This document shows positions 9,669 to 23,154 of a stretch of 64,000 nucleotides of DNA, one piece after another. Positions within the stretch are counted from its first letter, which is position 1; every line of letters starts with the position of its first letter. The stretch covers positions 1 through 64,000 of the forward strand of contig SVTY01000010.1 of the NCBI GenBank assembly GCA_015063535.1, in the 5' to 3' direction. Under the pieces are notes generated by a model. The model was given only the letters and a program-made list of their open reading frames with translations, was not told the origin of the DNA and searched no databases. The stretch comes from Oscillospiraceae bacterium (GTDB lineage: Bacteria; Bacillota; Clostridia; Oscillospirales; CAG-272). A program made the translations under genes and the position numbers.

Positions 9669-10658
9669 ATGAAAGAGCTTTTGGTGGTGTTCGGTGTCGT
9701 TTTGGCGGCAAGCTTTTTGCTGACGGCACTTCTGACCCGTATCATCATCCCGATCCTGAAAGGAAAAAAAGCAGGACAGCATATTCTTGAGATCGGTCCC
9801 CGTTGGCATGCCGACAAGGAGGGAACCCCTACTATGGGGGGGATCGCCTTTATTATGGCGATTTTGCTTGCACTGACGGGTGCTTCAATCTGGTTTGCCG
9901 TTCGGGGCAAGCAGAGGGAGCTGATTCCGCTGGCACTGACGCTGGCACTTGCTGTTATGAACGGTCTGATCGGCTTTGTGGACGATTTCTGCAAGCTGAT
10001 GAAAAAGCAAAATGAGGGCTTGAAGGCATATCAGAAGTCGGTTTTGCAGGTCTTGGCGGCGGCGGTGTATATCTTTGTGCTGAAGAGCCTCGGATATATT
10101 GATACCTCGGTGCATATCCCCTTTACCGAAATTTCGGTGGAGCTGGGGATCGTATATTATGTGTTTGCGTTGTTTGTGATCGTCGGTATGGTGAACAGTG
10201 TGAATCTGACCGACGGTGTGGACGGTCTTGCGGGTACGACGACCCTGATCGTATTCGGCTTTTTCGCATTTGTCGGATTCCAGTATCTGCACACCTCGCT
10301 TACCTTGCTTTCGGGAGCGTTGGTGGGCGGAATGCTTGGCTTCCTCCTGTACAATCTTCATCCGGCAAAGGTCTTTATGGGAGATACAGGCTCGCTCTTT
10401 TTGGGCGGTGCGGTGACGGGGGCGGCTTTCCTTGTGAACGACCCTATCATCGTATTTTTGGTGGGCGGCATGTTTGTGCTGGAATCGGTTTCGGTGATCC
10501 TTCAGGTGGGAAGCTTCAAGCTCCGCCATAAGCGGATCTTTAAGATGGCTCCCATTCACCATCATTTTGAGCAGTGCGGCTGGAAGGAAGGCAAGATCGT
10601 TGCCGTGTTCGGAACGGTGACTGCCATGCTTTGTGTGCTGGCGTGGTTTGGATTATAA
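9669..10658 (+). CDS. mraY: Phospho-MurNAc-pentapeptide transferase MraY
   Basis: 329 residues with about ten membrane helices. Family motifs are visible: TPTMGGIAFIM (about 56-66), VNLTDGVDGLAG (about 178-189), MGDTGSLFLGG (about 238-248) and APIHHHFE (about 296-303). The Asp residues of the second and third motifs form the Mg-dependent active site that transfers phospho-MurNAc-pentapeptide to undecaprenyl phosphate, giving lipid I. In many relatives murD follows immediately; here ftsW follows instead. Confidence 0.97.
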   Translation: MKELLVVFGVVLAASFLLTALLTRIIIPILKGKKAGQHILEIGPRWHADKEGTPTMGGIAFIMAILLALTGASIWFAVRGKQRELIPLALTLALAVMNGLIGFVDDFCKLMKKQNEGLKAYQKSVLQVLAAAVYIFVLKSLGYIDTSVHIPFTEISVELGIVYYVFALFVIVGMVNSVNLTDGVDGLAGTTTLIVFGFFAFVGFQYLHTSLTLLSGALVGGMLGFLLYNLHPAKVFMGDTGSLFLGGAVTGAAFLVNDPIIVFLVGGMFVLESVSVILQVGSFKLRHKRIFKMAPIHHHFEQCGWKEGKIVAVFGTVTAMLCVLAWFGL

Positions 10659-10684: not shown

Positions 10685-11986
10685 TTGAAGGATCAGGAAA
10701 ACAATCAAGAACGGAATCTGCCCGAACAACAAGAAAAAAAACAGATGCTTCGGCTGAAGGGCGGTGTTACGCGGCTTCGCCAAAAGCAAGAGGAGAAACG
10801 GATCGAGCGGGATGCGGTCTTTGAGGAGCCGCTGACGCCCGCCCCCGCGGCGGATGAGACGGCTCCTCTGTCCCGCGGAAGTGTGGATATGTGGTTCCTG
10901 CTTTGGGCTATGCTTTTGGTGTGCTTTGGTGCGGTCATGTCCTACAGTGCCAGCGCGGTATATGCCCAGCGGGAATATGACAGCTCTACGTATTACTTAT
11001 GGAGATACATTCTCTTTGCTGTCGTCGCTACGGTCGTTACCGTGCTTTTTGTCATTTATGCCCGTCCGTGGTTCTGGCGGATGTTCGGTGTGGGCGCTTA
11101 TGCCGTGTCGATCTTTCTGCTGCTGATCGTGCTGGTGGTCGGTGTGGCAGAGGGCGTGGCGCAGCGGTGGATCAGCCTTGGCTTCTTTACGCTTCAGCCC
11201 TCGGAGATCGCCAAAACAGCGGTGGTCATGATGTTGGCTCTGTACATGTCCAAATATGAAAAGCCGATCTCGTCCAATGCCAAGTTCAGCGGCAGCTTCA
11301 AGCACGGATTTCTTGTTCCCATGTGTATCATCGGTCTTATCTGCGGTCTGATCGCCTTGGAGCGGCATATTTCGGGCTTGATGATCGTCGGTGTGCTGGG
11401 TGTGGCGGTGATGTTCCTTGGGGGAACACGCCCCAAGTATCTTGCGATGTTCCTTGGGATCATTGCGGTGGCGGGTGTGCTTCTGATCTTGGTGTCGGAT
11501 TATGCGCAGACCCGTGTGCTGAGCTGGATCAATCTGGAACAGGATCCCTTGGGCTCGGGCTGGCAGACCCTTCAGGGGCTGTATGCCATTGGGTCGGGCG
11601 GATTTTTCGGACTGGGGCTTGGCTTCAGCCGACAGAAATTCGGCTATGTTTCACAGCCGCAGAATGACTTTATCTTTACCATCATTTGTGAGGAGCTTGG
11701 CTTTGTGGGCGCATTTCTTGTGGTGCTTCTGTTTGCCATGCTGATCTGGCGGGGCATTCGGATCGGTCAGCGTGCCCCCGATAAATTCTGCGCTCTGACG
11801 GTGTGGGGGCTGACCTTTAAGATCGCCTTGCAGGTTGCCATGAACATTGCGGTGGTGACCAATATGATGCCGAATACGGGCATCTCCTTGCCCTTCTTCA
11901 GTACGGGCGGATCGTCCTTGATGATCCAAATTTTTGAGATCGGGATCATTTTGTCGATCTCCCGATTTTCCACTCAGAAAAAATAA
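10685..11986 (+). CDS. ftsW: Peptidoglycan glycosyltransferase FtsW (SEDS family)
   Basis: 433 residues, starting at a TTG codon after GGGGAGGGA. A hydrophilic, charged N-terminus of about 60 residues precedes ten predicted membrane helices. SEDS hallmarks are present: QRWISLGFFTLQPSEIAK (about 158-175), GLGLGFSRQKFGYVSQPQ with NDFIF (about 302-325), and LPFFSTGGSSLM near residue 401. FtsW polymerises lipid II at the septum together with the class B PBP encoded at 4317-6614. It could equally be called SpoVE, since the two cannot be distinguished by sequence alone. Confidence 0.93.
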   Translation: MKDQENNQERNLPEQQEKKQMLRLKGGVTRLRQKQEEKRIERDAVFEEPLTPAPAADETAPLSRGSVDMWFLLWAMLLVCFGAVMSYSASAVYAQREYDSSTYYLWRYILFAVVATVVTVLFVIYARPWFWRMFGVGAYAVSIFLLLIVLVVGVAEGVAQRWISLGFFTLQPSEIAKTAVVMMLALYMSKYEKPISSNAKFSGSFKHGFLVPMCIIGLICGLIALERHISGLMIVGVLGVAVMFLGGTRPKYLAMFLGIIAVAGVLLILVSDYAQTRVLSWINLEQDPLGSGWQTLQGLYAIGSGGFFGLGLGFSRQKFGYVSQPQNDFIFTIICEELGFVGAFLVVLLFAMLIWRGIRIGQRAPDKFCALTVWGLTFKIALQVAMNIAVVTNMMPNTGISLPFFSTGGSSLMIQIFEIGIILSISRFSTQKK

Positions 11987-12073: not shown

Positions 12074-13228
12074 ATGAATTACGATATCATGCGTGTATTG
12101 ATGACAGGCGGCGGCACGGGCGGGCATGTGTATCCCGCACTTGCCATTGCCGAGCTGATCCGTCGGAACGATCCTTCCTCCGAGATCGCCTTTGTGGGAA
12201 CCGAGAAGGGAATCGAAAACCGATTGGTTCCTGCCGAGGGATATCGGCTGTATCATATTCCCATTCAGGGCATCCGACGGTCTTTGTCGCCGTCCAATTT
12301 CAAGACGGCGTATCTGGTGCTGACCTCTCCCCACAAGGCAAAGGTCTTGATACGGGAATTTAAGCCCGATCTGGTGATCGGAACGGGGGGCTATGTTTGT
12401 TGGCCCTTGCTGAAGGCGGCATCCGCCATGGGGATCCCGTCGATGGTGCATGAATCCAACGCATTGCCGGGGGTTGCCGTCCGTCAGCTTCAGGGAAAGG
12501 TAGATGTGATCCTGACCAACTTTGCCGAGACCGAAAAGCTTCTTCGGGCAAAGGAAAAGGTGGTCAATGTGGGAAACCCGTTGCGGGGGGGCTACGAAGC
12601 CCCCGACCGTATGGAGGCAAGACGCCGTTTGGGGATTCCCGACTCGGTTCGCTTTGTGATCCTCTCCTTTGGTGGCAGTCTCGGTGCCAAGCGTCTGAAT
12701 GAGGCGGCGGTGGCACTGATGGGAGAGCTTGCGGCAAAGAAAGAGGATGTGATGCACATTCACGCCACGGGAGCGAGGGGCTATGAGGCGGCAAAGCGGA
12801 TGCTTGCCGAGCGAGGCGTTGCCGAGCAGGAGCGGATCGTTGTGAAGGAGTATATTTATGACATGCCTCTGTATATGGCAGCGGCAGATCTGATCCTTTG
12901 TCGGGCGGGGGCAATGACCCTGACCGAGATCGCAGGAATGAAAAAGCCCGCAGTTTTGATCCCGTCGCCCAATGTGACCGACAATCACCAATATAAAAAC
13001 GCCAAGGTGCTGGCAGATGCGGATGCCGCTGTGCTGATCGAGGAAAAGGATCTGACCGAGGAGCGGCTGCTGGCGATTGTGACCGAGCTGTCGGAGGACG
13101 ATTTACGCCGTCAGCATATGAGCGAGCAGATCGCCGCCTTTGCCCGTAAGGATGCGGGACGGCGGATCTATGAGGAGATCACGAGCTTGCTTCGCCGCAG
13201 GGAAGTGATCAAGAGAAGGGAGCCATAA
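12074..13228 (+). CDS. murG: UDP-GlcNAc:lipid I N-acetylglucosaminyltransferase MurG
   Basis: GT28-type glycosyltransferase. The conserved N-terminus RVLMTGGGTGGHVYPALAIA begins just after the ATG at 12089; in-frame ATGs also occur at 12074 and 11996. The 11996 start has an AAAGGA only 2 nt away and would add a non-conserved extension of 31 residues, so 12074 or 12089 is preferred. Other motifs: HESNALPGVAVR, FGGSLGAKRLNEA, CRAGAMTLTEI and LIPSPNVTDNHQYKNA, the donor-sugar binding region. MurG converts lipid I to lipid II on the inner membrane face. The GGGG-aaacg-CCCC hairpin just before 12074 might affect initiation. Confidence 0.93.
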   Translation: MNYDIMRVLMTGGGTGGHVYPALAIAELIRRNDPSSEIAFVGTEKGIENRLVPAEGYRLYHIPIQGIRRSLSPSNFKTAYLVLTSPHKAKVLIREFKPDLVIGTGGYVCWPLLKAASAMGIPSMVHESNALPGVAVRQLQGKVDVILTNFAETEKLLRAKEKVVNVGNPLRGGYEAPDRMEARRRLGIPDSVRFVILSFGGSLGAKRLNEAAVALMGELAAKKEDVMHIHATGARGYEAAKRMLAERGVAEQERIVVKEYIYDMPLYMAAADLILCRAGAMTLTEIAGMKKPAVLIPSPNVTDNHQYKNAKVLADADAAVLIEEKDLTEERLLAIVTELSEDDLRRQHMSEQIAAFARKDAGRRIYEEITSLLRRREVIKRREP

Positions 13229-13270: not shown

Positions 13271-14098
13271 ATGGAGCGACCGAAAAGCAAGCAGACGCCG
13301 AGGCGTTCGCATTCCGTGTCGAAAAAAAGACCGAATGCCGCAGCTCTGCGGACGGTGCTTTTGATCGGCTTGACCGTTGCGCTGTGTGTATTGGCGGCGG
13401 TATCTGTCTTTTTTGCGGTTCGGCGGTTTATGAAGGTTCGCACCGTTCAGGTGGTGGGAATCTCCCAATATGAGCCGGAGGATCTGATCGGTGCTTCGGG
13501 GATCAAGATCGGCGATGCCCTGTATGCGGTGGAGGAGTCTGCCGTGGAGGAGCGGATGCTGAAAAGCTGTCCCTATTTGGAATCGGTACGCATCGAGCAG
13601 AAATTCCCCAACAAGCTTCGTATCATTGTGACCGAGAAAGCTCCCCGTTGGTACTTGGAGATATCGGGAAGCAAGTATGCGTTGGACAACGATCTGGTGG
13701 TGCTGACGCAGACTGCCAAGACCGACGGCATGACAAAGCTGGTCCTTCCCGACGTGAAGAGTGTTCTGTACGGACAGCTTCCTACCTTTGGGGACAGTGA
13801 GACCACGGTGCGAAAGACCCTGGAGGTCATTTCCGCCATTCGGCAAAGCCCCTTTCGGGATCGGCTGACCGAGGTGGACTTGGCAAGCCGATGGGATATT
13901 CGGATGGTGGTGGATGGACGGTTTTCTGTATCCATGGGGGATATGACCGATTTTGAAGCCAAGCTGAAGGCGGTGGAGGAGATCCTCGATTCCGACCGCT
14001 TGTCGGGGTGCGTGGGAGGCGAGGTGGATGTTTCGGTTCCCGATAACATTGCCGTGCGCCCGATCTATGCCGAGGAAAGGTTGCCTGACGGCAAATGA
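13271..14098 (+). CDS. ftsQ: Cell division protein FtsQ/DivIB
   Basis: 275 residues: a short basic cytoplasmic tail, one membrane helix (about 27-50), a POTRA domain (about 55-122, VRTVQVVGISQYEPEDLIGASG through NKLRIIVTEK) and a beta domain to about 260. This matches DivIB/FtsQ, the bitopic protein that scaffolds FtsL-DivIC and restrains the FtsWI synthase until division. An AAAGGAGATG site precedes the ATG. It is the last gene of the contiguous operon; a repeat-rich stretch follows. Confidence 0.88.
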   Translation: MERPKSKQTPRRSHSVSKKRPNAAALRTVLLIGLTVALCVLAAVSVFFAVRRFMKVRTVQVVGISQYEPEDLIGASGIKIGDALYAVEESAVEERMLKSCPYLESVRIEQKFPNKLRIIVTEKAPRWYLEISGSKYALDNDLVVLTQTAKTDGMTKLVLPDVKSVLYGQLPTFGDSETTVRKTLEVISAIRQSPFRDRLTEVDLASRWDIRMVVDGRFSVSMGDMTDFEAKLKAVEEILDSDRLSGCVGGEVDVSVPDNIAVRPIYAEERLPDGK

Positions 14099-14211
14099 TG
14101 TTACGCCAAGGCATACGCTTCGGTTTGTCAAGAATAGCAAAAAAGTCGATAGGGAGTTTTTCTGTATCGGCTTTTTCTTATTGGCGGGCATTCTGTGTTC
14201 GCCTGTTTGAG

Positions 14212-14435
14212 CCGATTCAAATTTCAAGCTACTCGGACAGTCGAGGACGCCTGTCCCTACGGGTTTGCGGGGTGTTCCAAGCCGATTCAAATTTCAACCT
14301 TTTTTGGCGGGCGTTCGCAGAACGCCCCTACGGGTATGGCGGATATTCCTTTCTCTCCGTAGGGGCGAACTGTGTTCGCCCGATTAAACCGTTTCAAATT
14401 TCAAGCTTCTCGGCGGGGGCTTGCTCCCGCCGAAA
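14212..14435. repeat. Intergenic repeat array, left copy
   Basis: Units starting CCGATTCAAATTTCAA (14212, 14282; variant at 14389) alternate with different short palindromes: GGACAG...CTGTCC near 14235-14256, GGGCGTTCGCAGAACGCCC at 14309-14327, GGGCGAACTGTGTTCGCCC at 14363-14381 and GGCGGGGGCTTGCTCCCGCC at 14412-14431, mostly flanked by CCTACGG or its complement. No coding function is supported. The stretch 14440-14650, with segments such as TCACTCCGCTCAGGATGACA, also looks like a dispersed non-coding repeat. Confidence 0.75.
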
Positions 14436-14656
14436 GAATAAAATTACTGACGAAGGGAAAGCCAGCAAAACGTGTTTGTAGATCCCTTCGTCGCTGACGC
14501 TCCTCGGTTTTGCTCGCTTACTTCGTTGCGCCTCGCAAAACTTCGGCTTCGTTTCACTCCGCTCAGGATGACAGGTTGGAGTGAGGTGGATGCGAACATA
14601 AAGGCGGATCGTGAGCGCCTACCCCTACCGAGTTTTAGGAGATTTTAAAAAAATCA

Positions 14657-14696
14657 GGCTGTCTCAAATGCTTTGTTTTTGGCATTTGGGACAGCC
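14657..14696 (-). terminator. Terminator of the lipoprotein gene
   Basis: Arms 14657-14671 and 14682-14696 pair with one mismatch. Read on the minus strand the stem is followed by TGATTTTTTT, right after the lipoprotein stop codon. The plus-strand side is less T-rich. Confidence 0.8.
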
Positions 14697-14701
14697 CTAT
14701 T

Positions 14702-15262
14702 TTATTTTTCTTCCGAGCCGGAATATTTGTTATACTTTTCTAATGCTTCGGATAAAGGCATATGATTATCCTTTGCTAATATGCGTAGAACTTCCATGTA
14801 ATCAGGGTCATCTGCCTCCGCATACAAGCGGTTCAATTCCGCTCGTATTTGTTTGATTTGGTTGTTTATTGACATGTTTGCACTTTCAAAGCTTCTTGCC
14901 AAGGCATTTAGTTCCAATTGCCTTGTTTCCGATGCAGGGGAAGACATTGCTTGTGCTCGTTTTCTATTATATTCACGGGTAAGCTCTGCTCTTTCCGTTT
15001 CCAATTCTTCGATTTCCTCGTACAAGGGTTTGGTTTTTTCTTCAATACTATCCATGTATTCCATTGTCGCCGCTAGATAAAGATCAAAAAACAATTGTTT
15101 TTCATATTCTTCGTCCACAGCTTCGCTCGTTTCTGCCGCAACCGTTTCGGTAATCTCGGTGGTTTCCTGCTCTGTTTGTTCTTGCTTGTCCGATTCGCTG
15201 TCACACGCCCACAAAAGGGGAATGCTTGCCGTTACCAAAAGTATCGCAATTAGTTTTTTCAT
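14702..15262 (-). CDS. Putative lipoprotein with a coiled coil, unknown function
   Basis: 186 residues. A signal peptide (MKKLIAILLVTASIPLLWAC) ends in a lipobox with Cys20, so the protein should be lipid-anchored outside the membrane. An acidic Glu/Thr-rich linker (about 22-50) is followed by a long charged helical region (about 70-145, KPLYEEIEELETERAELTR) likely to form a coiled coil. No family is recognised. An AGGAGGAAAG ribosome site precedes the ATG. It is transcribed against the division genes and is bracketed by near-identical repeats at 14212 and 15719, so it may be a later insertion between ftsQ and ftsZ. Confidence 0.7.
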   Translation of the reverse strand: MKKLIAILLVTASIPLLWACDSESDKQEQTEQETTEITETVAAETSEAVDEEYEKQLFFDLYLAATMEYMDSIEEKTKPLYEEIEELETERAELTREYNRKRAQAMSSPASETRQLELNALARSFESANMSINNQIKQIRAELNRLYAEADDPDYMEVLRILAKDNHMPLSEALEKYNKYSGSEEK

Positions 15263-15343
15263 GTTTCTTTCCTCCTAAAGTAAAAAATAAAAAGGTGTGC
15301 ACAACCGAAGTTATACACACCGAAAAACGCAAACTCCGATTGT

Positions 15344-15509
15344 TGTCACACAAACGAATCGGAATATAGGGATAGAATCTCTACACTTCAACATCCGTGG
15401 AGTTTGCATTTTTGCTAAACTCAGGATATTGAAGTGTTGACAAAAAGAGGGTATAGTATTCCCGTAAACAGAAAATACCCCTGTTATCCGATATTCAGTT
15501 TGTGTGACA
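15344..15509. repeat. Long imperfect inverted repeat, 166 bp
   Basis: The ends TGTCACACAAAC (15344-15355) and GTTTGTGTGACA (15498-15509) are perfect inverted repeats. A nested hairpin is formed by CACTTCAACATCC (about 15384) and GGATATTGAAGTG (about 15424), with an inner GAGTTTGC/GCTAAACTC pair. It could be a small MITE-like element or a structured regulatory region; no coding content is seen. Confidence 0.55.
15363..15391 (-). promoter_or_regulatory. Promoter of the lipoprotein gene
   Basis: On the minus strand TTGAAG (15386-15391) and TATATT (15363-15368) are separated by 17 nt, about 100 nt upstream of the start codon. The promoter lies inside the long inverted repeat at 15344-15509. Confidence 0.6.
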
Positions 15510-15611
15510 GGAATAGTATACCACATTTTTTGCCGTTTTGCAATAGGTTTTTGAATTTTTTTGGAAATTTTGGGCGAATGGGGGGAGCCTTTTTTATAAG
15601 ACCCATTCCGA

Positions 15612-15850
15612 GCCGATTCAAAATTTATTCTTTCGACGGGCGAACGCAGTTCGCCCCTACGGGTGCCGAGGTTCTTGGTTATCTTTCGTAGGGGCGATCT
15701 GTGATCGCCCGTTCCGAGCCGATTCAAATTTCAACCTACTCGGACAGTCGGGGACGCCTGTCCCTACGGGTTTGCGGGGTGTTCCAAGCCGATTCAAATT
15801 TCAAGCTACTCGGACAGTCGGGGACGCCTGTCCCTACAGATTTGCAGAAA
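15612..15850. repeat. Intergenic repeat array, right copy
   Basis: This has the same modules as 14212-14435: CCGATTCAAATTTCAA at 15719 and 15789, a variant at 15613, the palindromes GGGCGAACGCAGTTCGCCC at 15638-15656 and GGGGCGATCTGTGATCGCCC at 15691-15710, and two copies of the GGACAG...CTGTCC unit. The segment 15719-15806 matches 14212-14299 with only a few substitutions. Confidence 0.75.
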
Positions 15851-15910
15851 CATGGTAGGCTAGCCCGTTTCAACCTGATTCAAAATTCGATCTCGCAGGC
15901 AGAGGAACAG

Positions 15911-16070: not shown

Positions 16071-16099
16071 TTGCAAAATTCCCGAAAATATATTATCAT
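16071..16099 (+). promoter_or_regulatory. Promoter of ftsZ copy 1
   Basis: TTGCAA at 16071-16076, a 17-nt spacer and TATCAT at 16094-16099. The -10 region AAATATATTATCATAT recurs before the second ftsZ. Confidence 0.75.
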
Positions 16100-16209
16100 A
16101 TATATATGTATATGCGTGCCTGCACCTGCGCCGCATTTTGAGGCGGTGCGGAAGGACAGAAGAAGCGGCGGTACAACGAACGATGTAAAAAATTTTGGAG
16201 GATATAAAA

Positions 16210-17340
16210 ATGACTTTTGAACGTGATGAAAGCCGTGAGTGCGGCGTGAAGATCAAGGTGATCGGTGTCGGCGGAGGCGGCAACAATGCAGTGAACCGCA
16301 TGATCTCCGCAGGAGTACAGGGTGTGGAATTCGTAACCATCAATACCGACCGTCAGGCACTGAAGCATTCGGTGGCGACCAATCAGATCGTGATCGGTGA
16401 GAAGATCACCAAGGGCTTTGGCGCAGGCGCCAATCCCGAAATCGGCGAGCGCAGTGCGGAGGAGTCGATCGACGCCATCAAGACCATGCTGGCAGGTACC
16501 GATATGGCATTCATTACCGCAGGCATGGGCGGCGGTACGGGAACCGGCGCAGCACCCGTTGTGGCAAGAGTGGCGCATGAGATGGGCATTCTGACCGTGG
16601 GTGTTGTTACCAAGCCCTTTGCCTTTGAGTCCAAGCGCAGAATGGATCAGGCACTGGCGGGTATTGACGAGCTGAGCCAGTATGTGGATTCCTTGGTGGT
16701 GATCCCCAACGAGCGTCTGAAGCTGGTATCCGACACGAGAATTACGCTGTTCAACGCCTTCTCGGTTGCCGATGATGTGCTTCGCCGTGCTGTTCAGAGC
16801 ATTTCCGAGCTGATCAATGTGACCGGCTTTATCAATTTGGACTTTGCTGACGTAACGGCAATCATGACCCGCTCCGGTCTTGCCCATATGGGTATCGGAA
16901 GCGCATCGGGCAAGGATAAGGCAGAGAATGCCGCCAAAATGGCAATTTCCAGCCCGCTTTTGGAGACCTCCATCAAGGGGGCGATGGGCGTTATCATCAG
17001 CATTTCCGCCTCTCCCGATGTGGGGCTTGAGGATATTGATCTGGCGTCCCGTATGATTACCGATGAGTGCAACGAGGATGCCAACGTGATCTGGGGTGTG
17101 GCATTTGATCCCGAGCTTCAGGACGAAATGCGGATCACCATTATTTCTACCGGCTTTACCAAGGAATCGAACAGCGTTCCCCTGAAGGCGGCGGTGCCTG
17201 CGGAGGCGGCAGAGGTTGCGGAAGCAGAGGCTGTCTCGGAGGAGGTCAAGACGGAGCCCGAGGCTCCCAAGGCGGCTCCGAAGAGGGCTTCGGATGACTT
17301 GGATCTGGACGATTTCTTCGGCAGCATGTTCGGAAAATAA
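16210..17340 (+). CDS. ftsZ: Cell division GTPase FtsZ, copy 1
   Basis: 376 residues. The nucleotide-binding domain has [15 protein letters not shown] (about 17-31) and the tubulin signature [15 protein letters not shown] (about 104-118). The T7 synergy loop NLDFAD (about 206-211) keeps the catalytic Asp residues, so GTP hydrolysis should be intact. An acidic Ala/Glu-rich linker (about 320-360) ends in [12 protein letters not shown] rather than a usual IPxFL-type tail. The ATG at 16210 has a TTGGAGG site 7-8 nt upstream; an upstream TTG would overlap that site and is rejected. FtsZ polymerises into the division ring. A paralogue follows, and no ftsA or sepF is nearby. Confidence 0.95.
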
Positions 17341-17363
17341 TCGGACTGCGTTCGATTGAATAC

Positions 17364-17402
17364 AGACCGCCGTTGACGGACGACCCAAGGCGGCGGTCTT
17401 TT
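17364..17402 (+). terminator. Terminator between the two ftsZ genes
   Basis: AGACCGCCG (17364-17372) pairs with CGGCGGTCT (17391-17399), followed by a short T run. It makes the two ftsZ genes separate transcription units. Confidence 0.75.
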
Positions 17403-17443
17403 AAAAAAATTCGGCGAATCCTGTAAAATTTTTGAAAAAAGTA

Positions 17444-17472
17444 TTGAAAAAAATCGAAAAATATATTATCAT
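17444..17472 (+). promoter_or_regulatory. Promoter of ftsZ copy 2
   Basis: TTGAAA at 17444-17449, a 17-nt spacer and TATCAT at 17467-17472. The AAATATATTATCATAT segment is the same as that before copy 1. Confidence 0.75.
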
Positions 17473-17530
17473 ATAAGTAATAGAAATATGCGCCCCGAAA
17501 CGGCGCAAGGATGTAGGAGGAGAATGCTTC

Positions 17531-18604
17531 ATGACCTTTGAACATGATACGGCTGCGAATGAATACGGTGTAAATATTAAGGTGATCGGTGTCGGCGGAG
17601 GCGGTAACAACGCCATCAACCGCATGATCGCTTCGGGCGTAAAGGGTGTTGATTTTATTGCCATCAATACCGACAAGCAGGCACTCAAGAAGTGCGTGGC
17701 TCCCACTCAGCTTGTGATCGGTGAGAAGATCACCAACGGATTTGGTGCCGGCTCCAATCCCGAGATCGGTGAGAGAGCGGCAGAGGAAGCGGTCAACGAG
17801 ATCAAAAAGCTTCTGTCGGGCGCCGATATGGTGTTTATTACCGCAGGTATGGGCGGCGGAACGGGTACCGGCGCGGCTCCCGTGGTCGCAAGACTGGCGC
17901 AGGAGCTGGAAATTTTGACCGTGGGTGTGGTCACCACTCCCTTTGGCTTTGAAGGAAAGCGGAAGATGGAGCGTGCAGAGGAGGGAATCAGCGAGATCTC
18001 TCAGTATGTGGATTCCTTGGTGGTTATCCCCAATGACCGTTTGCGTTTGGTTACCGATACGAGGATCACGTTGCTCAATGCCTTCTCCGAGGCGGATGAG
18101 GTGCTTCGCCGTGCGGTACAGAGCATTTCCGACCTGATCAACATTCCCGGATTTATCAACATCGACTTTGCCGATGTGACTTCGATCATTGCCAACTCCG
18201 GTGTGGCATACATGGGTATGGGTAGCGCAACCGGCAAGGATAAGGCGCAGATCGCCGCCAATATGGCGATCGCCAGCCCGCTTTTGGAGACCTCTATCAA
18301 GGGTGCAAAGGGCGTTATCATCAGCATCTTTGCTTCCGCCGATGTGGGGCTGGAGGATGTGGAGCAGGCTTCTTCGATGATCTCCGAGAGTTGCAGCCCC
18401 GATGCCAGCGTCATTTGGGGTGTGGCATTTGATCCCGATCTGGAGGATGAGATGCGCATTACCATCGTTGCCGCCGGCTTCGACAAAGAGGAAGAGGCTG
18501 TCGAGGAGGCTCCTGTTGTGGAGCAGCCCGCAGAGGAAGAGGTTGTGGCAGAGGAGCCGAAGAAAAACGGCGATCTGTTGGATGATTTCTTTGGAAATAT
18601 GTAA
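17531..18604 (+). CDS. ftsZ: Cell division GTPase FtsZ, copy 2
   Basis: 357 residues, starting after TAGGAGGAG. It has [30 protein letters not shown] and the T7 loop NIDFAD, so it also looks GTPase-competent. The core is close to copy 1 along its whole length, including the first residues MTFE. The linker is shorter, more acidic and Val/Glu-rich (about 318-343), and the tail is DLLDDFFGNM, echoing copy 1. The simplest explanation is tandem duplication including the promoter, followed by divergence mainly in linker and tail. Whether both act at vegetative division or one serves sporulation septation cannot be told. Confidence 0.95.
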   Translation: MTFEHDTAANEYGVNIKVIGVGGGGNNAINRMIASGVKGVDFIAINTDKQALKKCVAPTQLVIGEKITNGFGAGSNPEIGERAAEEAVNEIKKLLSGADMVFITAGMGGGTGTGAAPVVARLAQELEILTVGVVTTPFGFEGKRKMERAEEGISEISQYVDSLVVIPNDRLRLVTDTRITLLNAFSEADEVLRRAVQSISDLINIPGFINIDFADVTSIIANSGVAYMGMGSATGKDKAQIAANMAIASPLLETSIKGAKGVIISIFASADVGLEDVEQASSMISESCSPDASVIWGVAFDPDLEDEMRITIVAAGFDKEEEAVEEAPVVEQPAEEEVVAEEPKKNGDLLDDFFGNM

Positions 18605-21753: not shown

Positions 21754-23154
21754 TCATGCGCCGACCTCATAGCCCGGATACTGCCCCTCATTCAGACGGG
21801 ATCCGTTGTACAGGTCGCTGTACAGGGAGGTAATGGCGTTCCATGTGACAGCGGCGACCGTGCCTGTTGCCGGGATGCCTTGTAGCTCTTGAAAGGCGAG
21901 AACCGCCTGCCTTGTCTGTGTGCCGAAATAGCCTGTGACCGAGACAGAGGGGAGTTCATCAAAAAAGCCTGCCAGATAGTTCAGATATTCCTGAAGAACC
22001 CGTACCGAATCGTCCTCTGAGCCAAGGCGAAGGGGAACACCCGGGTAGGGGAGGATATTGCCTTCGATATATCGGAAGGGGATGGTCTCGATAAAGCCAA
22101 GGTAGGTGCGGTATAGGACATCCCACGTATCAAAGCTTACCTCGCCCGTAACGGGAAGCTCGAAGGTCTGCTGAAAGGCAGAAACGGCGGAGGCGGTGGC
22201 GGGACCGTACACGCCGTCGATGGCGACGGAGGGAATGGTGTTATAAAATTCTGCCAAGTAGGATAGCAGATATTGAATATTTTGCACCTCGCTTCCCGTA
22301 GAGCCGATGCCAAGACCGGGGGTATATTGTTGGGTGACCTCCGACAGAGTGATCCCCTCGGAATCCAGCTCGTTGAGACGCTTGACGGCATTGTAGATGA
22401 ATTGGATGGCATACCATGTGGATTTTCCCACGATCCCATCCTCAGGCAGAGAAAATACCTGCTGAAACTGTCGGACCGCCGCCTCGGTGTCGAAGGAAAA
22501 CACACCGTCGGGAATGGCGACTTTGGGAATGGAGGGGTAATTATCGGAGATCCGATTCAGACGGATCTGGATCTGACGAACGTCATCCCCCGCCGTTCCC
22601 AAGCGAAGCAGACGGTCGGGCAGAGAGGCGGTAATATCCTCCACGGGCGTATCGGTGACGATGTTGATATCGTCTCCGTAATAGTATTGCAGGATCTCAT
22701 AGGGCGTATAGCCTTGATTGGCGAGGCTGACTGTTCCCCATTGGGATAGCCCCGGGCAGGTGACGGTGGTGCCGTTGCAGTATTGGGCAAACAACGGCTC
22801 CACACTGCCTTGGCGGACAATGTAGCTGTCGAACAGCTCGGAGACAAGCTGAGTGATGTTTTCAAACAGGTCTCTGCCGTTGACAAAATACTGATCGTAG
22901 GCGGTGTCGTTGGTAATATCGAAGTTGTAGCCACGGATTCGGTAATATTCGGTGTAAATCCGATTGAGAGCGAAGGAGATCTGTGCATAGATATTGGCAC
23001 GGATGGCGTTTTCGGGCCATGTGGGATAAATTTCGCTGGATGCCACGTTGGCGATGTAGTCCGTAAAGGGAACGGTCACATTGGGCGCATTGGAATTTGG
23101 GGAGCCCAAATGAACCGTAATGGAGGAGGGGATGACGGGCAATCTTGCGTTCAT
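21754..23154 (-). CDS. SpoIID/LytB-domain protein with three peptidoglycan-binding repeats
   Basis: 466 residues. Residues 1-180 resemble the SpoIID/LytB amidase-enhancer domain: VPFTDYIANVASSEIYPTWPENAIRA has the Glu position conserved in SpoIID, and GLSQWGTVSLANQGYTPYEILQYYYG matches the C-terminal SpoIID block. Three PG_binding_1 repeats follow at about 185-260, 285-350 and 370-440. SpoIID acts as a lytic transglycosylase during engulfment. This protein has no visible signal peptide or membrane helix, so it is a relative, not SpoIID itself. The operon suggests a role in spore or cell-wall remodelling. Confidence 0.8.
   Translation of the reverse strand: MNARLPVIPSSITVHLGSPNSNAPNVTVPFTDYIANVASSEIYPTWPENAIRANIYAQISFALNRIYTEYYRIRGYNFDITNDTAYDQYFVNGRDLFENITQLVSELFDSYIVRQGSVEPLFAQYCNGTTVTCPGLSQWGTVSLANQGYTPYEILQYYYGDDINIVTDTPVEDITASLPDRLLRLGTAGDDVRQIQIRLNRISDNYPSIPKVAIPDGVFSFDTEAAVRQFQQVFSLPEDGIVGKSTWYAIQFIYNAVKRLNELDSEGITLSEVTQQYTPGLGIGSTGSEVQNIQYLLSYLAEFYNTIPSVAIDGVYGPATASAVSAFQQTFELPVTGEVSFDTWDVLYRTYLGFIETIPFRYIEGNILPYPGVPLRLGSEDDSVRVLQEYLNYLAGFFDELPSVSVTGYFGTQTRQAVLAFQELQGIPATGTVAAVTWNAITSLYSDLYNGSRLNEGQYPGYEVGA

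Follow-up and report, generated by a model that had tools for sequence, protein, structure and literature searches.

Two side-by-side ftsZ genes kept for a long time in an uncultured group of gut Clostridia

Why would a bacterium carry two complete copies of ftsZ, one directly behind the other? The question is raised by contig SVTY01000010.1 of an Oscillospiraceae bacterium (assembly GCA_015063535.1), whose first 64,000 nucleotides, analysed here as a whole, are referred to as the window. An earlier note had described a tandem ftsZ pair at this locus; that core observation was confirmed and its interpretation partly supported. An uncultured group of gut Clostridia has kept both copies, side by side, for a long time.

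Results

Both window copies score well above the curated TIGR00065 cut-off of 295.2 bits (409.9 and 416.5 bits, whole protein). As had been claimed, each keeps the GTP-binding tubulin signature GGGTGTG and the T7 loop N-x-D-x-x-D for GTP hydrolysis, the catalytic loop being retained in ftsZ2 as well; an arginine equivalent to Staphylococcus aureus R143 in helix H5 was not found. The paralogs are 73% identical and full-length, residues close to the GTP-hydrolysing site are altered in one of the two, and the end of the ftsZ2 tail, judged by eye, is acidic/aromatic in many species. The locus is arranged as follows.

16071..16099, + strand: ftsZ1 promoter (TTGCAA, 17 nt, TATCAT), A-rich stretch upstream
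16197..16201, + strand: ftsZ1 ribosome-binding site GGAGG, read in the sequence
16210..17340, + strand: ftsZ1 gene
17364..17399, + strand: terminator-like hairpin, then TTTT, between the genes (fold -26.3 kcal/mol, z -2.8)
17444..17472, + strand: ftsZ2 promoter (TTGAAA, 17 nt, TATCAT)
17515..17520, + strand: ftsZ2 ribosome-binding site AGGAGG, read in the sequence
17531..18604, + strand: ftsZ2 gene

The terminator proposed between the copies is backed by a terminator-like hairpin, but this is absent from the output of a simple terminator scan. Stage-specific use in sporulation, also proposed, gained no support: the second copy has no distinct promoter class, the two promoters resembling each other, and no sigma-H-like site lies ahead of either gene. 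Spo0A and SpoIVA occur in 21 and 20 of 30 genomes, respectively, single-copy species included.

Both paralogs are retained under selection, as in the chloroplast-type system. In the FtsZ tree they form sister clades, and the duplication is placed after the divergence of single-copy lineages, but in an approximately unbiased test an earlier duplication followed by loss remained compatible with the data (p 0.18 and 0.11). The tandem paralogs probably arose within or near one genus. At synonymous sites, copies from the same genome are slightly closer than copies from different genomes, an observation that, together with the similar promoters and the GTP-binding and T7 motifs retained in both window copies, would favour a pure dosage effect, with interchangeable copies raising total FtsZ. 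We consider this unlikely, and favour two differentiated partners in the division ring. An origin of ftsZ2 by misassembly or by gene transfer is scarcely credible, even for a draft source genome (22 contigs, 83.9% complete), since the paralogs are sister clades and the same pair recurs in 20 genomes of the genus, with ftsZ2 directly behind ftsZ1 in most; in the fetched stretches of 12, the pair is preceded by the complete mraY-ftsW-murG-ftsQ run.

That run, part of the dcw cluster, is represented in the window by four genes.

9669..10658, + strand: mraY (Pfam PF00953/PF10555), order kept in relatives
10685..11986, + strand: ftsW (PF01098)
12086..13228, + strand: murG (PF03033/PF04101)
13271..14098, + strand: ftsQ/divIB (PF08478/PF03799)

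Single-ftsZ relatives in the genus share the dcw position and promoter type of the pair. The interval between ftsQ and ftsZ1 (14186-15895) holds several copies of a repeat family with 92-nt and 28-nt units, including stretches such as GCCGATTCAAATTTCAA and GGGGACGCCTGTCCCTACGG, which is likely a small dispersed element. Further downstream (21754-23154, minus strand) lies a protein that contains three peptidoglycan-binding repeats and weakly matches SpoIID.

SepF is present in 27 of the 30 genomes; one single-ftsZ species (G216) has two SepF matches. PF14450 (FtsA) exceeded its cut-off in all 30, but the window's match is MreB and 10/10 other scanned matches exceed an MreB cut-off; the FtsA model TIGR01174 reached its cut-off in 0/30 genomes, against 7/14 controls.

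Samples of 196 genomes each were drawn from the family and the class. FtsZ was matched in 183 family genomes, 19 of them with two matches, both long in 11; in the remaining 8 the second was either fragmentary or fell, weakly, in a different protein. Matches were found in 192 class genomes, and of the 191 other than the window's own, 183 have one and 8 have two by match count alone, in agreement with the earlier statement that most Clostridia carry a single ftsZ. Additional pairs within the family or close to it seem to be separate, apparently independent duplications: tandem in L058 (4977-7193) and G177 (C48), unlinked in G184 (C63 and C117). A second, strongly diverged FtsZ occurs in L118, L119, L120 and L121 (G134, G019, G043, G011), and in G078 and G123, on a different contig from the main ftsZ; it is 314-317 residues long in the four read, apparently without linker and C-terminal peptide, and the ten neighbouring open reading frames scanned had no common theme. 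Three class genomes from a different genus (G324, G347, G365; family f54, genus g161) have two FtsZ matches each, and a Culturomica (Bacteroidota) contig carries two tandem ftsZ-like reading frames (L085, 2590-5015).

Discussion

Dual FtsZ is described, in the portions of the literature drawn on here, for chloroplasts, archaea, Atribacteria and Rhizobiales; no report of a conserved tandem pair in Clostridia, most of which have one gene instead of two, was among those listed by full-text literature searches, subscription papers lying outside their coverage. Archaeal FtsZ paralogs are ancient and far apart in sequence, unlike the window paralogs with their identity of 73% and their origin within or near one genus. 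The archaeal system nevertheless resembles this one in having two FtsZ per cell together with SepF, there the membrane anchor (PMC8187382, PMC8178401). Odinarchaeota also have two paralogs, reported to differ in filaments and tethering (PMC12583498), in another domain of life and of separate origin. Among bacteria, 'Ca. Atribacteria' RT761 has two FtsZ genes and expresses both during exponential growth, one product bearing an N-terminal extension with a predicted amphipathic helix and the other gene adjoining ftsA (PMC7736352), whereas the window copies are adjacent, neither has such an extension, and FtsA is not detectable. More than one FtsZ is likewise found in the Rhizobiales, with two in Sinorhizobium meliloti (PMC4414408) and three in Agrobacterium, where a single one is essential and has the full length, including linker and C-terminal peptide (PMC13170164), unlike the window copies, both full-length and held under selection.

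Plant chloroplasts also have two paralogs, FtsZ1 and FtsZ2, both needed for division; their filaments behave differently in vitro through differences in the core domain, and FtsZ1 alone gives no detectable filaments (PMC8142252, PMC12343686). That pair serves division of a plant organelle, whereas the window genes sit next to each other on a bacterial chromosome. From the residues we infer that two FtsZ proteins with different dynamics may co-assemble here. The long retention of both copies, with changes near the GTP-hydrolysing site in one, suggests that in these gut Clostridia the second ftsZ may be part of a two-part division ring, and not a spare gene.
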